DNA from: Stappia sp. WLB 29
GTDB lineage: Bacteria; Pseudomonadota; Alphaproteobacteria; Rhizobiales; Stappiaceae
Direction of reading: 5' to 3'
Length of the DNA: 64,000 nucleotides
Assembly: GCF_023507705.1 (NCBI RefSeq)
Contig: NZ_JALBGD010000014.1
Span: forward strand, 21,325 to 85,324
Shown here: one piece after another, positions 24,538 through 29,479 of the stretch
How the letters are laid out: each line of letters opens with the position of its first letter
How positions within the stretch are numbered: position 1 is the first letter of the stretch
Translations under genes and position numbers: made by a program
The notes under the pieces: model-generated
Databases searched by the model: none
Told to the model about the DNA's origin: nothing
What the model saw: only the letters and a program-made list of their open reading frames with translations

Positions 24538-25005
24538 GGAATGGCGTCTTTCGTCGTCTGGCGTCGTCCGGGATCTGCGATCGTCGTCCCGTCTTGCGAT
24601 GCGTGGCGGCAATCCTGGTACGGACGGTAGGGCTCGACCCCGCATGGCCTAGACCGAGGGACCGGTAACTCTGGAGACCGTACCTGTCGTTCTGTATCTG
24701 AAGCGAGTTTTCCGGCTTATCCGGGAGCGCGCAGGATAGTGCGCACGAATCCTGCTGATTTTGCGGGCATCTCGGACCTCATCCGCCTGCTGCCTTGCGG
24801 CACCGACTGCATGTGGCTGCCAACCTACCATTTTCCCCGGCCGAGCCAAGTACAAGGCTGAACGGACATGGTCAAGGCTTCGCCCGCAAGCCCTGCCTCC
24901 CGGTGCCGCCTCCCACCTCGCTGCGGCGTTGTCGTTTGCATTCCCTGCTGCCGGCGCCGGAACAATGTCTCCGATCAGGCCGTTTGCAAGGAATGGAGTG
25001 GTCGC
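24538..25005. other. 468-base intergenic region between trkH and an mgtC-like gene
   Basis: Carries the promoters of two divergent genes, both for ion homeostasis. I looked for an M-box, a yybP-ykoY-like manganese element and a K+-sensing riboswitch upstream of both and could not establish any of them. Several short GC-rich inverted segments occur, none compelling. Confidence 0.4.
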
Positions 25006-25533
25006 ATGCTTGAAACGGATATCGTCCTGAGGCTGTCGCTCGCAGTTGCCGGCGGCCTCGTGCTGGGCCTCGACCGCGAACTGCGCGGCATTTCCGCCGG
25101 CATTCGCACGCATGGCATCGTGTCGCTAAGCTCGGCGGCGATCACGGTGTCCGCGCTTCTGCTCTACGACGCGATGAGATTCGATGCCGGCCCGCAAAGC
25201 ATGGATCCCTTGCGGGTAATCCAGGGACTGGCGCAAGCCATCGGCTTCATCGCGGCCGGGACCATCTTCTTCTCCCGCGGCGACGTCCACAACCTGACAT
25301 CGGCCGCCAATCTGTGGCTTGCCGCCGCGCTGGGAATCGCCGCAGGCGCGGGCCAGTTCGTCCTGTTCTTCACCGCGCTCGTCCTGGGTGCGGTTCTGCT
25401 CACCGGCGTCCGTGTTCTGGAACGCTTCCTGCCCGGACGCGGCCAGCCCGAGCAAACGCAGTCTACCGGGCGACAAGTCTCGCGGGACGCACATTCCAAC
25501 GCTCCGAACCACGCGGTCACCAGCCAAGACTGA
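25006..25533 (+). CDS. MgtC/SapB family membrane protein
   Basis: A 175-residue membrane protein of the MgtC family. About four hydrophobic segments lie in residues 8-140, and the family motif GLVLGLDRELRGISAGIRTHGIVSLSSAA (18-46) is present. MgtC proteins support growth under low magnesium or acid and modulate ATP synthase in Salmonella; many family members are untested. The C-terminal tail (145-175) is hydrophilic and unusual. ATG 25006 has GGAG about 9 bases upstream. It is convergent with a cation exchanger-like gene. Confidence 0.85.
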   Translation: MLETDIVLRLSLAVAGGLVLGLDRELRGISAGIRTHGIVSLSSAAITVSALLLYDAMRFDAGPQSMDPLRVIQGLAQAIGFIAAGTIFFSRGDVHNLTSAANLWLAAALGIAAGAGQFVLFFTALVLGAVLLTGVRVLERFLPGRGQPEQTQSTGRQVSRDAHSNAPNHAVTSQD

Positions 25534-25566
25534 AGGGCTGCTGCAGCAGGTCCCTGCTGCAGGGTA

Positions 25567-26586
25567 CTAGCTCCCCTGCGTGACGAAGATTTGGAGCGCG
25601 ACAGCGCCCGCATAGATGGCAAGCAGCGCTGCGCTTTCCGTTCCGATGCGGATAGGCCCGGAGCGCTCGCGCAAAATGAGCCCCGCCAGGAGGACCGCCG
25701 TCATCATGGCGGCGATGACCACCCAGAAGAAATCCGAAGGGCCGGCCGCGTGATAGAGCGAACCGTCCCGATACGAAATGTCCGCGGCCGTCAGGAACAG
25801 GGTGTCGAACGTGTTCCCTCCGATGATCCCGCCGATGGCCAGCTGCAACGACCCGCGCCGGACGGCGACCAGCGTGGTCACGAGTTCCGGCATCGAGGTG
25901 ATCGTCGCCGTCGCCAACGCTCCGACCAGCGAGGCCGAGAGCCCGAACCTGTCCACCAGCACTGAGGCGCTCGAGGCGATGGCCCAGCCGGCAATCCCCA
26001 TGACCACCATCAACCCGGCGAAGCTCGCGATGAGCGCGGCAGTGGAGCGTTCGCCTTCACCGCCGCCTTCCGCCTCCGGCCGATCTTCCCGGGTATCGGA
26101 GGTCGCAACGGGGCGCCACATGGGCTCTGCGCGAATGGAGCGGCTGGCGACCAGCGACGCGATATAAATGACCGGTATCGCCAGGGAGACCGGATGGACC
26201 GACCATAAGGTGAACTCCGGCAGGGTCACCGCGAGGAACGGCAGCATCAGCAAGCCGAACAGCACCACCGCCTGAAACACGTTCACCAGTTCGGCGCCGG
26301 CGTGTTCGAGATTGGCCCGCCGGTATGTCAGGTCGGCAATGGCCAGGAACGCCGTCTGGGCGGCGATACCACCGATGCTGTTGGAGAACGCCAGCGAAGC
26401 CTGCCCCTCCAGTGCCGCCGTAATCGAGACGATGGTGCCGCTGAGCGAGGTGGACGCCCCCAGAAGCACCGCCCCGGCAATCGCTTCTCCCAGGCCCGTG
26501 CGATCGGCAAGCGTGTCGGCCAGCCTGGTGAGACGGGTGCCGCTGATGAACACCGCAAGGCCCGCCGCGATGAAGACAAGAAGCAC
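25567..26586 (-). CDS. Na/Ca exchanger-like (CaCA) cation transporter
   Basis: A 339-residue protein of the CaCA exchanger family with about ten membrane segments arranged as two alpha-repeats. Repeat two is normal (ATATITSMPELVTTLVAVRRGSLQLAIGGIIGGNTFD), but repeat one reads LLGASTSLSGTIVSITAALEG, in which the conserved acidic residue of the usual SLPE is Ser-Gly. Ion transport is therefore doubtful or altered. Between the repeats is a cytoplasmic loop with EDRPEAEGGGEGERS. GTG 26586 is taken as start, although the best ribosome site (AAGGAG, about 26622-26627) lies 36 bases further upstream (see findings). Confidence 0.82.
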   Translation of the reverse strand: MLLVFIAAGLAVFISGTRLTRLADTLADRTGLGEAIAGAVLLGASTSLSGTIVSITAALEGQASLAFSNSIGGIAAQTAFLAIADLTYRRANLEHAGAELVNVFQAVVLFGLLMLPFLAVTLPEFTLWSVHPVSLAIPVIYIASLVASRSIRAEPMWRPVATSDTREDRPEAEGGGEGERSTAALIASFAGLMVVMGIAGWAIASSASVLVDRFGLSASLVGALATATITSMPELVTTLVAVRRGSLQLAIGGIIGGNTFDTLFLTAADISYRDGSLYHAAGPSDFFWVVIAAMMTAVLLAGLILRERSGPIRIGTESAALLAIYAGAVALQIFVTQGS

Positions 26587-26668
26587 AGTGGTCGTGGAGG
26601 CGCTGACTAGGATGGCAAAATCTCCTTTTTTCTGGTCGGTTACGACCGGGCTCGGCTCGAAGGGGCGT

Positions 26669-27973
26669 CTAGGCCAGAGCCTTGACGGCCTCGATCGCCG
26701 TGTCGACCTCCGACTCCATATTCCGGATAGATGGCGTCAGGCGGATATGCGCCTGGGCATACGGCGCGACCGATGCGACGATCCCGCGCTCCCTGAGTGC
26801 CGCCACCGCCGCGCCGGCCGAGCGACCGTCGATGTCGAACGAGACGATGCCCGCCGAGAGATCCGGATCCATCGGGGTGATCACCGCGACCCCGTCGATG
26901 GCGGCAAGCCCGCGCTTGAGACGGGTTGCAAGCCCGTGCGTTCGCTCTTGAACCGCCGCCTTGCCGATTTGAGCGTGAAGCTCGAAAGCCTCCTTCACCG
27001 CCCACAGATGCTCGAAGGCCTTAAAGCCTCCAGGTGTCATGCGGCGCCCGTTGTTCCGGCCTCTCGGCGCGTTTCGCCTCCTGACCCAGGCATTGAAAGT
27101 CGGATCGTCGGTGAAACTGGGCACCGTCGGTGCCAATGCGTCCAGCGCCTTGCCGCTGAAAACCGCGATGCCGGTGCCGCGCGGACCGAAGAGCCACTTG
27201 TGGCATCCGGCCATCAGCATGTCGCACCCGAGGTCGGCGAAGGAGACGTCTTCGATGCCGAAGCCATGGACACCGTCGACGCCCAGTAGAATATGGTCCT
27301 GCGGGTCGCGGCCCGCATTGTGGTCGCGAAGTCCCCTGGCGATGGCACGAATGGGCATCTTGAGCCCGGTGCTGGAATGGACCCAGGTCAGCGCCACCAG
27401 ACGCGTTTTGGGGCCGACTCCATTCAGGACGGCGGCGGCGATGGCCTCGGCCGTAGCATCGGAGGCCCGCTCGTAGAGCGGTATCGAGCGCAGGCGAGCA
27501 CCGGATTCCAGCGCCTTGAGGCGCAGCGCCTCATGGGTGACGAAATAGTCCTCGTCGGTGGTGAGCATCTCCTGATCCGCGCGAATCTGGAGCCCGCCAT
27601 AGGCCAGTCCCACAGCCATCGTCGTGCTGTCGGCGAACGCCACATGCGAGGAATGGATGTCGAGATAGGTGCCCGCAGCACGCCGGCTCGCCTCGGTGAG
27701 TTCCTCCATATGGGCTTCGAGATAGGCGACCGTGTCGCGGTCCAGTCCTGCACGATGGCGCGCGATCGCTTGCGCCACGGGACGGGGATGCGACGACAGC
27801 AGCATCGCGCTCATGTGGACCTTGTCGCGGGTCAGCTCGAAGAGATCGCGGACCGCCTCCCAGTCTTCCAGCGACGACGGGCTAAGCGTTTCCGCCTCCG
27901 AAATCCTCGAGATGCCAAGCGCAGCCGGAAACGCCGCCATGAGGTGAAGCAGATGACGGCGCGAAAACGCCAT
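26669..27973 (-). CDS. Tat-exported class V aminotransferase (isopenicillin N epimerase-like)
   Basis: A 434-residue PLP-dependent fold-type I enzyme of the class V aminotransferase/cysteine desulfurase group. The PLP lysine lies in MAGCHKWLFGPRGTG (about 250-264), and the PLP-phosphate and aspartate segments (DGVHGFG, HSSTGLK) are present. The N-terminus MAFSRRHLLHLMAAFPAALG carries an SRRxxL twin-arginine motif and hydrophobic core, so the folded enzyme is probably exported. ATG 27973 has GGAGG upstream. It is followed by the CaCA carrier gene after 82 bases. The substrate is unknown; other class V enzymes remove sulfur or epimerise beta-lactam precursors. Confidence 0.85.
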   Translation of the reverse strand: MAFSRRHLLHLMAAFPAALGISRISEAETLSPSSLEDWEAVRDLFELTRDKVHMSAMLLSSHPRPVAQAIARHRAGLDRDTVAYLEAHMEELTEASRRAAGTYLDIHSSHVAFADSTTMAVGLAYGGLQIRADQEMLTTDEDYFVTHEALRLKALESGARLRSIPLYERASDATAEAIAAAVLNGVGPKTRLVALTWVHSSTGLKMPIRAIARGLRDHNAGRDPQDHILLGVDGVHGFGIEDVSFADLGCDMLMAGCHKWLFGPRGTGIAVFSGKALDALAPTVPSFTDDPTFNAWVRRRNAPRGRNNGRRMTPGGFKAFEHLWAVKEAFELHAQIGKAAVQERTHGLATRLKRGLAAIDGVAVITPMDPDLSAGIVSFDIDGRSAGAAVAALRERGIVASVAPYAQAHIRLTPSIRNMESEVDTAIEAVKALA

Positions 27974-28103
27974 GGGGAGGCCTCCGTGTCTGTCTTGAGA
28001 TTCAACGCAAGACGTAGCACATGGTTGCCTGAGCGAGGGACCATGTCGGCAGCTCAGTTCCAGGTTGAGCATTGGTCGGCGCTTTGCTAGCAGAGAGGCC
28101 AGT

Positions 28104-28395
28104 GCGGACGTGGTGGAATTGGTAGACACAAGGGACTTGGGGCAAACTTGAGTGCGCCGGCGGAAACGCGGGACGTAGAACTGCTCAAATTCGGGGAACC
28201 CTGTCACATGGCGATCCCGAGCCAAGCCCGAGAAATCGGGAAGGTGTAGAGACTAGACGGGCAGCACCTAAGGCTTTCGCTACGGTGAAGGTATAGTCCA
28301 GACCACAAACGCCGAAAGGCGGCGGCGAAAGCCGTAGCTGGTACGAAAATCCCTCAGCCTCGGCTATGCGGGTTCGAGTCCCGCCGTCCGTACCA
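28104..28395 (+). tRNA. tRNA-Leu(UAA), split by a group I intron
   Basis: Exon 1 is 28104-28138 and exon 2 is 28346-28395; joined they give an 85-nt class II tRNA with CCA encoded. The acceptor stem is GCGGACG/CGTCCGT, the anticodon stem is AGGGA/TCCCT with loop CTTAAAA (anticodon UAA), the long variable arm is GCCTCGGC, and the T arm is GCGGG/CCCGC around TTCGAGT. The intron falls between U34 and A35 of the anticodon. If no other tRNA-Leu(UAA) exists, splicing is essential for reading UUA (and UUG by wobble). Confidence 0.96.
28139..28345 (+). ncRNA. Group I intron (subgroup IC3-like), 207 nt
   Basis: A self-splicing-type RNA. The last exon base is U and the last intron base is G (28345), as required. 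P1 forms from ACUU (28135-28138) with the internal guide GAGU (28150-28153), giving the U-G pair at the 5' splice site, and extends with GGG/CUU. P7 is GACUA (28251-28255) with UAGUC (28294-28298), and P8 is CACC (28265-28268) with GGUG (28284-28287). Stretches such as CCGAGCCAAGC, AAGGUGUAGAGACUAGACGG and CACCUAAGGC match, as I remember it, the Azoarcus tRNA-Ile intron. There is no open reading frame, so no homing endonuclease. Confidence 0.93.
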
Positions 28396-28645
28396 GACAG
28401 ACCGGCGCCCCTACGGCCGGTCGCGCCTGCTGTGCCGGCCCTGCGTCCAGCGCCACTCGCCCTTGCGGCGAAAGCGGATTGCGCCCCACGCCCTCGCGTT
28501 TTAAGGCTATTGGAAATCCCGGCGGAGCCAGTCCCGCCCGACCCTTGCGCCCCGCATGCCTCCCGCATCGCGCGGCGACCGCAGACACTGCGGCGCGGGG
28601 GGGCGGCAGTCCCGCGACACGAACAGCCCGGACGAGCATCTCGCA

Positions 28646-29479
28646 ATGGTCACCTATATCGACGCCACCACGGCCCCTCTCAAGAATACCGGCCAGATCC
28701 GCCTCTACGGGCCGGAGGACTTCGCCGGCATGCACAAGGCGGGACAGCTGACGGCGCGCTGCCTCGATGCGCTGGTGGAAAAGATCGTGCCCGGCGTCAC
28801 CACTCAGGAGATCGACGATTTCGTCTACCGCTTCGGTGTGGAAAACGGCGCCCTGCCGGCGACGCTGAACTACCGCGGCTACACCAAGTCGACCTGCACC
28901 TCGATCAACCATGTCGTCTGCCACGGCATCCCGAACGACAAGCCGCTCAAGGAAGGCGACATCGTCAATATCGACGTGACCTACATCCTCGAAGGCTGGC
29001 ACGGCGATTCCAGCCGCATGTATGCGGTCGGCAAGCTGAAGCGCGCCGCCGAGCGGCTGGTGGAGGTTACTTACGAATCGCTGCTGCGCGGCATCGAGAT
29101 GGCCCGGCCCGGCAAGACCACCGGCGACATCGGCCACGCGATCCAGAGCTTCGTGGAAGCAGAGCGCTGCTCGGTGGTGCGCGACTTCTGCGGCCACGGC
29201 GTCGGCCGTCTGTTCCACGACATGCCGAACATCCTGCATTACGGCCGTCCGGGCGAAGGCATCGAGCTGAAGCCGGGGATGATCTTTACCATCGAACCGA
29301 TGGTCAATCTCGGCCGGCCGCATGTGAAGGTGCTCGGCGACGGCTGGACCGCCGTCACTCGCGACCGCTCGCTGTCGGCCCAGTTCGAGCACTCGGTCGG
29401 CATCACCGCGACGGGGTGCGAGATCTTCACCCTGTCGCCCGCCGGCCTCGACAATCCGCTGACCTTCGGTCGCGCCTGA
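28646..29479 (+). CDS. map: Methionine aminopeptidase, type I
   Basis: Removes the initiator methionine from new proteins. The 277-residue enzyme has all five metal ligands in the usual contexts: two aspartates in VNIDVTYIL and WHGDSSRM, His in [11 protein letters not shown], Glu in FTIEPM and Glu in QFEHSVGI. The substrate-binding His-containing segment [10 protein letters not shown] is also present. ATG 28646 ([11 protein letters not shown]) is chosen because the upstream in-frame sequence is compositionally odd and arginine-rich. radC follows 25 bases downstream. Confidence 0.96.

Follow-up and report, generated by a model that had tools for sequence, protein, structure and literature searches.

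An intron-split tRNA-Leu(UAA) gene and its predicted ribozyme

The window, i.e., the whole analysed stretch of 64,000 nucleotides from Stappia sp. WLB 29, carries on its forward strand a tRNA-Leu(UAA) gene (28104-28395) whose anticodon is interrupted by a group I intron of 207 bases (28139-28345) lying between U34 and A35, as identified by ARAGORN with introns allowed and as read from the sequence. Exon 1 (28104..28138) ends in AGGGACTT, with U33 and U34, and exon 2 (28346..28395) runs from AAAATCCCT through CCA. In the sequence, U28138 at the 5' splice site lies opposite G28150 in P1 (ACUU/GAGU), and the last intron base is G28345. A covariance search of a 701-base stretch with the Rfam model Intron_gpI gives a match of 45.5 bits (E = 2.4e-10), and the core helices pair. 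An earlier sequence-only reading, which had proposed a group I intron with these ends at this site, a U-G splice pair and a terminal G, and had named a covariance search as a check, is therefore borne out. The intron is predicted to self-splice. The 49 bp upstream of the gene (28055..28103, forward strand), probably a promoter, are kept in the intron-bearing genes of G003, G012 and G017, with differing DNA beyond.

Because 45.5 bits falls under the 50-bit gathering score of Intron_gpI, which is a curated annotation threshold and not a biological property, a default Rfam scan is silent; default ARAGORN does not report the tRNA-Leu(UAA) either, so that the genome would seem to lack an essential tRNA. 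Related introns score above the threshold (55.3 bits in G003, 53.8 in G087 and 51.8 in G017). At E <= 0.001 the genome has no Intron_gpI match other than the window intron. The possibility of a second tRNA-Leu(UAA) gene, also raised by the sequence-only reading, came to nothing beyond a fragment: a tRNA family search, a D-arm pattern and whole-gene BLAST found no second intact copy in the genome (37 contigs, completeness rating 99.91%), the BLAST returning the intron-bearing gene and one 3' half-gene relic. The inventory comprises 43 tRNAs from the tRNA family model, typed with ARAGORN; its sensitivity is incomplete, since it overlooked a Leu(CAA) gene that the D-arm pattern recovered. Among the genes found in the genome, the intron-bearing gene is the only source of tRNA-Leu(UAA).

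A structure alignment of 37 introns of this family (the window intron and 36 of 42 others collected) places P3 at 28181-28186/28259-28264, P7 at 28251-28255/28294-28298 and P8 at 28265-28268/28284-28287. The RNAalifold consensus has 47 pairs, 20 of them with at least one compensatory change. All 20 pairs of P3, P4, P7 and P8 form in 37/37 aligned introns, which agrees with the earlier proposal of P7 and P8, and pairing falls to 21-45% in a shifted-partner control; compensatory changes affect one pair each in P3, P7 and P8, P4 being invariant. In a tree of 68 introns, which includes the tRNA-Arg(CCU) and tRNA-Thr introns of the order and leaves out those of Azoarcus and cyanobacteria, the window intron belongs to a group of 13 (support 94/86, bootstrap not settled). 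The other members are those of G002, G012, G003, G059, G087 and G262 together with six introns linked to elements or integrases, namely E316 (Breoghania), E317 (Rhizobium pisi), E318, E319, E329 and E330. Several intron-bearing tRNAs are misnamed by ARAGORN (Phe, Ser, Stop, Tyr) through a shifted splice site, and their exons read as Leu(UAA).

Two further observations concern other group I introns. In genomes of family f18 (L128, L130, L132, L133, L136-L138), tRNA-Thr(GGU) is interrupted after U36; we know of no printed report of this tRNA as a host. At G250:C36:10660-12405 (L116), where ARAGORN recognised no tRNA, there are strong matches to two group I introns (82 and 89 bits), about 1.5 kb from each other.

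A broken resident gene beside the intron-bearing copy

The whole intron-bearing gene, used as query in 61 genomes, has full-length matches in the window genome (G000), in three others of the genus (G002, G003, G012), in a member of another genus (G017, 95% identical) and in a member of another family (G059, 89%). The genus is thus split, with the intron in 4/14 genomes and an uninterrupted tRNA-Leu(UAA) gene, containing GGACTTAAAATCC in every case, in the other 10/14. In two of these intronless congeners (G008, G004), the intact minus-strand gene lies between the stretch that ends at window position 24661 and the gene that we call map, i.e., a Peptidase M24 gene (28646..29479, forward strand, PF00557) which probably encodes methionine aminopeptidase and, by synteny, forms the conserved far flank of the resident tRNA locus. 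At the corresponding place, BLAST and synteny with the intact congener genes reveal, on the reverse strand (24615..24661), what is left of the resident intronless tRNA-Leu(UAA), a decayed 3' half. The sequence-only reading had stopped short of this broken gene, 3.4 kb away, and of the link to mobile elements.

Between relic and map gene lies a segment of about 3.8 kb (24662..28446) that includes the intron-bearing tRNA and, by synteny, is absent from 9/10 intronless congeners, in which its flanks adjoin; the tenth (G001) aligned on the map side only. It also encodes an MgtC family protein (24868..25533, forward strand, PF02308), a Na+/Ca2+ exchanger family protein (25567..26586, reverse strand, PF01699) and a class V aminotransferase (26669..27973, reverse strand, PF00266), and may represent the remains of an old element insertion or DNA gathered at one.

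The intron-bearing gene of the window is oriented opposite to the relic. The arrangement is similar in G002 and G012, with local differences. In G003 the relic is more decayed, its intronless anticodon loop is still visible, and the intron-bearing gene lies nearby in native orientation. The core of the resident gene, clearer in G003, is decayed in the window, which keeps the 3' half only. On alignment, all four genomes (G000, G002, G012, G003) match the native gene as far as the core and share non-native sequence past it. A single insertion at the core in a common ancestor, with later rearrangement, fits this pattern best. The resident tRNA, of the same isotype as the intron-bearing one, would accordingly have been broken at its anticodon core, as expected if the latter is a rescue tRNA. 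No integrase of the family described below and no second att half are left in the window, and no integrase was found in G002, G003 or G012; the locus was therefore filed as a likely remnant and not as an active member, the element origin of its copy being an inference for the same reason. The intron-bearing genes have a unit of about 342 bp in common, the flanks of which are unrelated in G003, G017 and G059.

Related intron-bearing tRNAs lie within elements that split tRNA-Leu(UAA)

In G017 (Breoghania, Stappiaceae), the resident tRNA-Leu(UAA) gene is split at the anticodon into halves 31.6 kb apart, which have GGACTTAAAATCC in common; the 5' half is joined to a foreign tRNA-like end. The intervening DNA encodes an integrase, adjoining the 5' half, as well as a relaxase and a coupling protein, and it carries the intron-bearing tRNA-Leu, 95% identical to that of the window. 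The integrase matches PF00589 weakly (20 bits, cut-off 27.1). With it as tblastn query, relatives were found in G134 (76%) and G243 (69%), as well as two fragments beside the intron-bearing tRNA of G087. Broken tRNA, integrase and intron-bearing tRNA follow each other within 1.8 kb in G134, and the broken 5' half lies directly upstream in G354 and G243. All four genomes (G017, G134, G243, G354) have tRNA-Leu(UAA) broken at the same point. G022, of the same genus as G017, also has a split resident gene; the halves, only about 1.1 kb apart (L106 10001-11210), enclose a spare that lacks an intron and whose anticodon stem is changed.

The G017 element additionally carries, beside its intron-bearing tRNA (L103 10687-14753), genes for a DUF4917 protein, an OLD-like ATPase and a UvrD-like helicase, the latter two presumably resembling a Gabija-type defence pair.

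Twenty genomes of the order have an intron typed as Leu(UAA), this typing leaving out 10 without a retrieved locus among the 41 with an intron match. In the stretches examined, a broken resident gene accompanies the intron in eight of them (four being one event), integrase fragments alone in one, and neither relic nor integrase in 11. Across 397 genomes of the order, co-occurrence of the integrase (21 genomes) with any group I intron (41) is weak, both being present in 4; most integrases of the family in the order rebuild other tRNAs, and many introns sit in tRNA-Arg or tRNA-Thr.

Distribution of spare tRNAs across the integrase family

A scan for relatives of the G017 integrase in one genome per species (84,980 species) gave 235, of which the best 80 were analysed and sorted by what lies on either side of the integrase. 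Among these best 80 of 235, 37 break tRNA-Leu(UAA). An intron-bearing Leu tRNA accompanies 31 of the 37, within 650 bp after the integrase in 28 and at 3.4-6.2 kb on the other strand in three; as for the remaining six, two end at a contig edge just inside a split spare, one is cut too early and three show none. Eleven of the best 80 rebuild an intact target (Met, Phe, Arg, Thr) and have no tRNA in the scanned stretch after the integrase. In another 12 the spare is a plain Leu(CAA), nine of these loci also having a broken Leu(CAA) half that can be recognised, and a further 12, all Acidobacteria (L347, L358, L367, L368, L372, L381, L384-L386, L388-L390), break Leu(CAA) without a visible spare; in these, the host Leu(UAA) perhaps covers UUG. 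The other eight of the best 80 are single cases: an intron-bearing Leu(CAA) spare (L364), a broken CAA target with an intron-bearing UAA spare (L393), a plain Leu(UAA) spare with altered stem (L342), an intron-bearing spare at a contig start (L330), plain Leu(UAG) spares (L353, L391), and two that fall in no class (L336, L361).

Draws from the order, class and phylum to which the window belongs add six Leu(UAA)-breaking loci outside the 80, with a visible intron core in G243, L426, L428, L430 and L434 (the last cut by the contig end) and no visible spare in L431. A scan of viral contigs for the integrase gave three loci, of which L417 breaks Leu(UAA) without a spare in the stretch, one has a plain Leu(CAA) spare and one a tRNA 3' half. 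Over the best 80 of 235, the draws and the viral contigs together, an intron core is present at 36/44 Leu(UAA)-breaking loci; the other eight comprise two cut just inside a split spare, one cut too early and five without a visible spare. At the 22 order loci, 16 rebuild their target (four also among the best 80 of 235) and four are unclassified. None of the target-rebuilding loci, i.e., the 11 named above and these 16 (four shared), has an intron-bearing tRNA after the integrase in the scanned stretch.

G1050:C46 (L442 and L445) has a tandem of two integrases of the family; a broken Leu(CAA) half accompanies the first and a plain Leu(CAA) spare the second.

Intron-bearing spares keep the integrase core

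Native targets of the integrase family read N-GACTTAAAA. The joined exons of intron-bearing spares read GGACTTAAAA in 25/27 parsed cases and AGACTTAAAA in the other two; as they match the native target sequence, such spares would, without the interruption, be targets. In intronless spares the stem is usually altered, whereas intron-bearing spares keep the core. When the loop and three stem bases of each spare were compared with the att site of its own element, the core was identical in 18/27 intron-bearing and 1/13 plain spares (p = 5.7e-4), a comparison confounded by isotype and kinship, as plain spares are nearly all Leu(CAA) and the elements are related. Restricting the plain class to the nine cases with a clear tRNA half gives 1/9 identical (p = 0.006). 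Loci with unparsed att or exons (L316-L318, L330, L351, L364, L387) and those cut by contig ends stand outside the test. In L337, a plain spare has kept the core unshielded. Within Leu(UAA) there are two plain spares only (L342, G022), and the altered stem of the latter is still similar to att sites of other family members. Among the loci surveyed, no Leu(UAA)-breaking element was seen with an uninterrupted, unaltered Leu(UAA) spare.

Introns in phages, viral contigs and plasmids

The Gordonia phage Daredevil (NC_048021, L192 5840-6151) has an unannotated tRNA-Lys(UUU) beside its integrase, split by a 238-base intron of the same family as that of the window. The joined exons have CGGACTTTTAATCCGC in common with a nearby uninterrupted core (16 bp), whereas the plain tRNAs beside related integrases of seven phages share only 0-11 bp with the core; four of the seven are listed as tRNA-dependent in PMC10865867 and three are their relatives. 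Against the full Rfam model the Daredevil intron has a poor score (15.4 bits, E 0.43), and its identity therefore rests on its exons and on 81% identity to the window intron over 48% of the latter. Daredevil is described as having clear plaques and no rescue tRNA of its own (PMC10865867); the plaque phenotype argues against its spare working in that host. With a tRNA-Lys and unrelated to the cases above, Daredevil would be an independent parallel, which points in the same direction as a role of the intron in shielding the integrase core.

The intron core motif occurs in at least 120 stretches of viral contigs, of which 80 loci were analysed (L193-L272). An intron-bearing tRNA, mostly Leu(UAA) and in some cases with Lys, Met or Arg-like exons, is present in 62 of these 80. 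A simple integrase motif lies near two of the 62, the other 60 having no recognised integrase, which means that the persistence of such introns needs no use as a shield; a rule by which every tRNA group I intron marks an integrase is therefore unsupported. A search of the 62 loci for an uninterrupted core gave 0-10 bp, inside the cross-contig control, save for Daredevil (16 bp) and L235 (13 bp); the L235 match turned out to be an adjacent intact tRNA-Leu. An intron-bearing tRNA-Lys(CUU) in L202 lies about 115 bp from an integrase motif.

Plasmids harbour the family as well: 1276 plasmid records, 1243 of which cover at least 80% of the query, contain at about 73% identity an unannotated tRNA-Leu(UAA) gene with an intron of the window's family, e.g., L143 6001-6299 (NC_004464.2, pCTX-M3) and L144 6001-6300. 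In both the gene is near aac(3)-IId, and no link to an integrase was seen.

A likely rescue tRNA and its competing explanations

Taken together, these data make it probable that the intron-split tRNA-Leu(UAA) is the rescue tRNA of an element that broke the resident gene, and that its intron hides the anticodon-loop target from the integrase. What carries this reading at the level of sequence is the intron itself, the intronless gene of the congeners, the relic at the old place and the closely related intron-bearing tRNAs in elements that split tRNA-Leu(UAA) at the core GGACTTAAAATCC. A tyrosine integrase would have used the anticodon loop of the resident tRNA-Leu(UAA) as its crossover site, and the element's own tRNA would have kept the cell alive once that gene was broken. 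RNA splicing is predicted to restore a normal tRNA; in DNA, the intron is predicted to cut the integrase core mid-way, so that the spare can keep a standard anticodon stem without being a target. The element would then have decayed and lost its integrase, leaving an intron-bearing tRNA with which the cell, its resident gene being dead, could no longer dispense. More tentatively, the same may hold for anticodon-loop group I introns of bacteria at large, which would act as integrase shields in the spares of elements and phages that break a host tRNA, by splitting the core in DNA and vanishing in RNA, decay of the elements leaving essential tRNAs with introns.

A rescue tRNA could also have worked without any shielding, if the intron were a neutral hitchhiker, often present in phage tRNA-Leu(UAA), and its overlap with the core a coincidence of position. 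That tRNA group I introns sit in the anticodon loop anyway, that so many of the analysed viral loci have intron-bearing tRNAs with so few integrase motifs, and that the plain spare of L337 retains an unshielded core would all be compatible with this. We nevertheless regard it as unlikely, as plain spares are usually changed in the stem and intron-bearing spares true to the core, with the same contrast in actinophages, and as the combination of a broken Leu(UAA) gene with an uninterrupted, unaltered Leu(UAA) spare was not seen.

Less probable still is a transfer free of any element, in which the tRNA with its intron and 49 upstream bp moved as a short piece of DNA and the resident gene, no longer needed, decayed later. 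The short common unit with unrelated flanks in G003, G017 and G059 would suit such a transfer, as would the lack of an integrase in the window, G002, G003 and G012, but the non-native sequence common to the four congeners begins at the integrase core of the resident gene, and G017, G134, G243 and G354 have Leu(UAA) broken at that same point.

Finally, vertical descent of the ancient tRNA-Leu intron with repeated loss in the genus, to which the sequence-only reading had pointed through the insertion site at U34/A35, which is also that of the cyanobacterial and plastid intron, is scarcely credible and was rejected because an intronless relic lies at the ancestral place (with an intronless loop in G003) and the intron-bearing gene at a new one, because the intron is sporadic in the genus and 95% identical in another genus in which neighbouring genes are near 79%, and because its close relatives include element-borne introns.

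If the rescue reading is right, a passing mobile element can permanently replace an essential tRNA gene by one with an intron, and the cell would then need a ribozyme to decode UUA. The finding would offer a concrete, testable reason for the scattered occurrence of bacterial tRNA introns, as well as a natural setting in which to test a long-standing proposal, namely that such introns guard against integration. Should the shield reading also hold, it would explain both the scatter of such introns among bacteria and their recurrence in favourite integration targets.

Comparison with known systems

Group I introns are known in bacterial tRNA genes from cyanobacterial tRNA-Leu, Azoarcus tRNA-Ile, Agrobacterium tRNA-Arg and a gammaproteobacterial tRNA-Leu. 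Like the window intron they are small and lie in the anticodon loop, tRNA-Leu(UAA) being a known host; to our knowledge, they have not been described as parts of integration modules. In the literature searched, mostly outside subscription journals, no earlier report of a rescue tRNA with an intron was found.

Close counterparts are spare tRNAs of integrating phages. In Sinorhizobium meliloti, prophage integration inactivates tRNA-Leu(UAG) and a prophage tRNA substitutes for it (PMC11476347); as in the proposal made here, a leucine tRNA is inactivated and the element's tRNA takes over, but the isotype is different and the word 'intron' is absent from the main text of that report. In the tRNA-dependent lysogeny of actinobacteriophages, the spare tRNAs described are intronless (Guerrero-Bustamante and Hatfull 2024, PMC10865867), the word 'intron' appearing in that paper a single time, within a reference. 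In the window, by contrast, a group I intron interrupts the spare at the core, and the locus appears to be a remnant that outlived its element. The present data also bear on a published case, as the same report has Daredevil without a rescue tRNA, whereas an intron-split tRNA-Lys is present in the phage sequence.

A related idea comes from Archaea. A protection hypothesis has been put forward for disrupted archaeal tRNA genes (Randau and Soll, cited in PMC4390854), and Sugahara et al. 2012 (PMC3293823) suggest that an integrated element could benefit from an added intron when faced with further invaders. The logic is alike, in that interruption removes an integration target and splicing preserves the tRNA (PMC4390854, PMC3293823). 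However, while the archaeal introns are cut by a protein endonuclease and lie in or at the resident gene, the case described here involves a bacterial group I intron in an element's own spare, at many loci.
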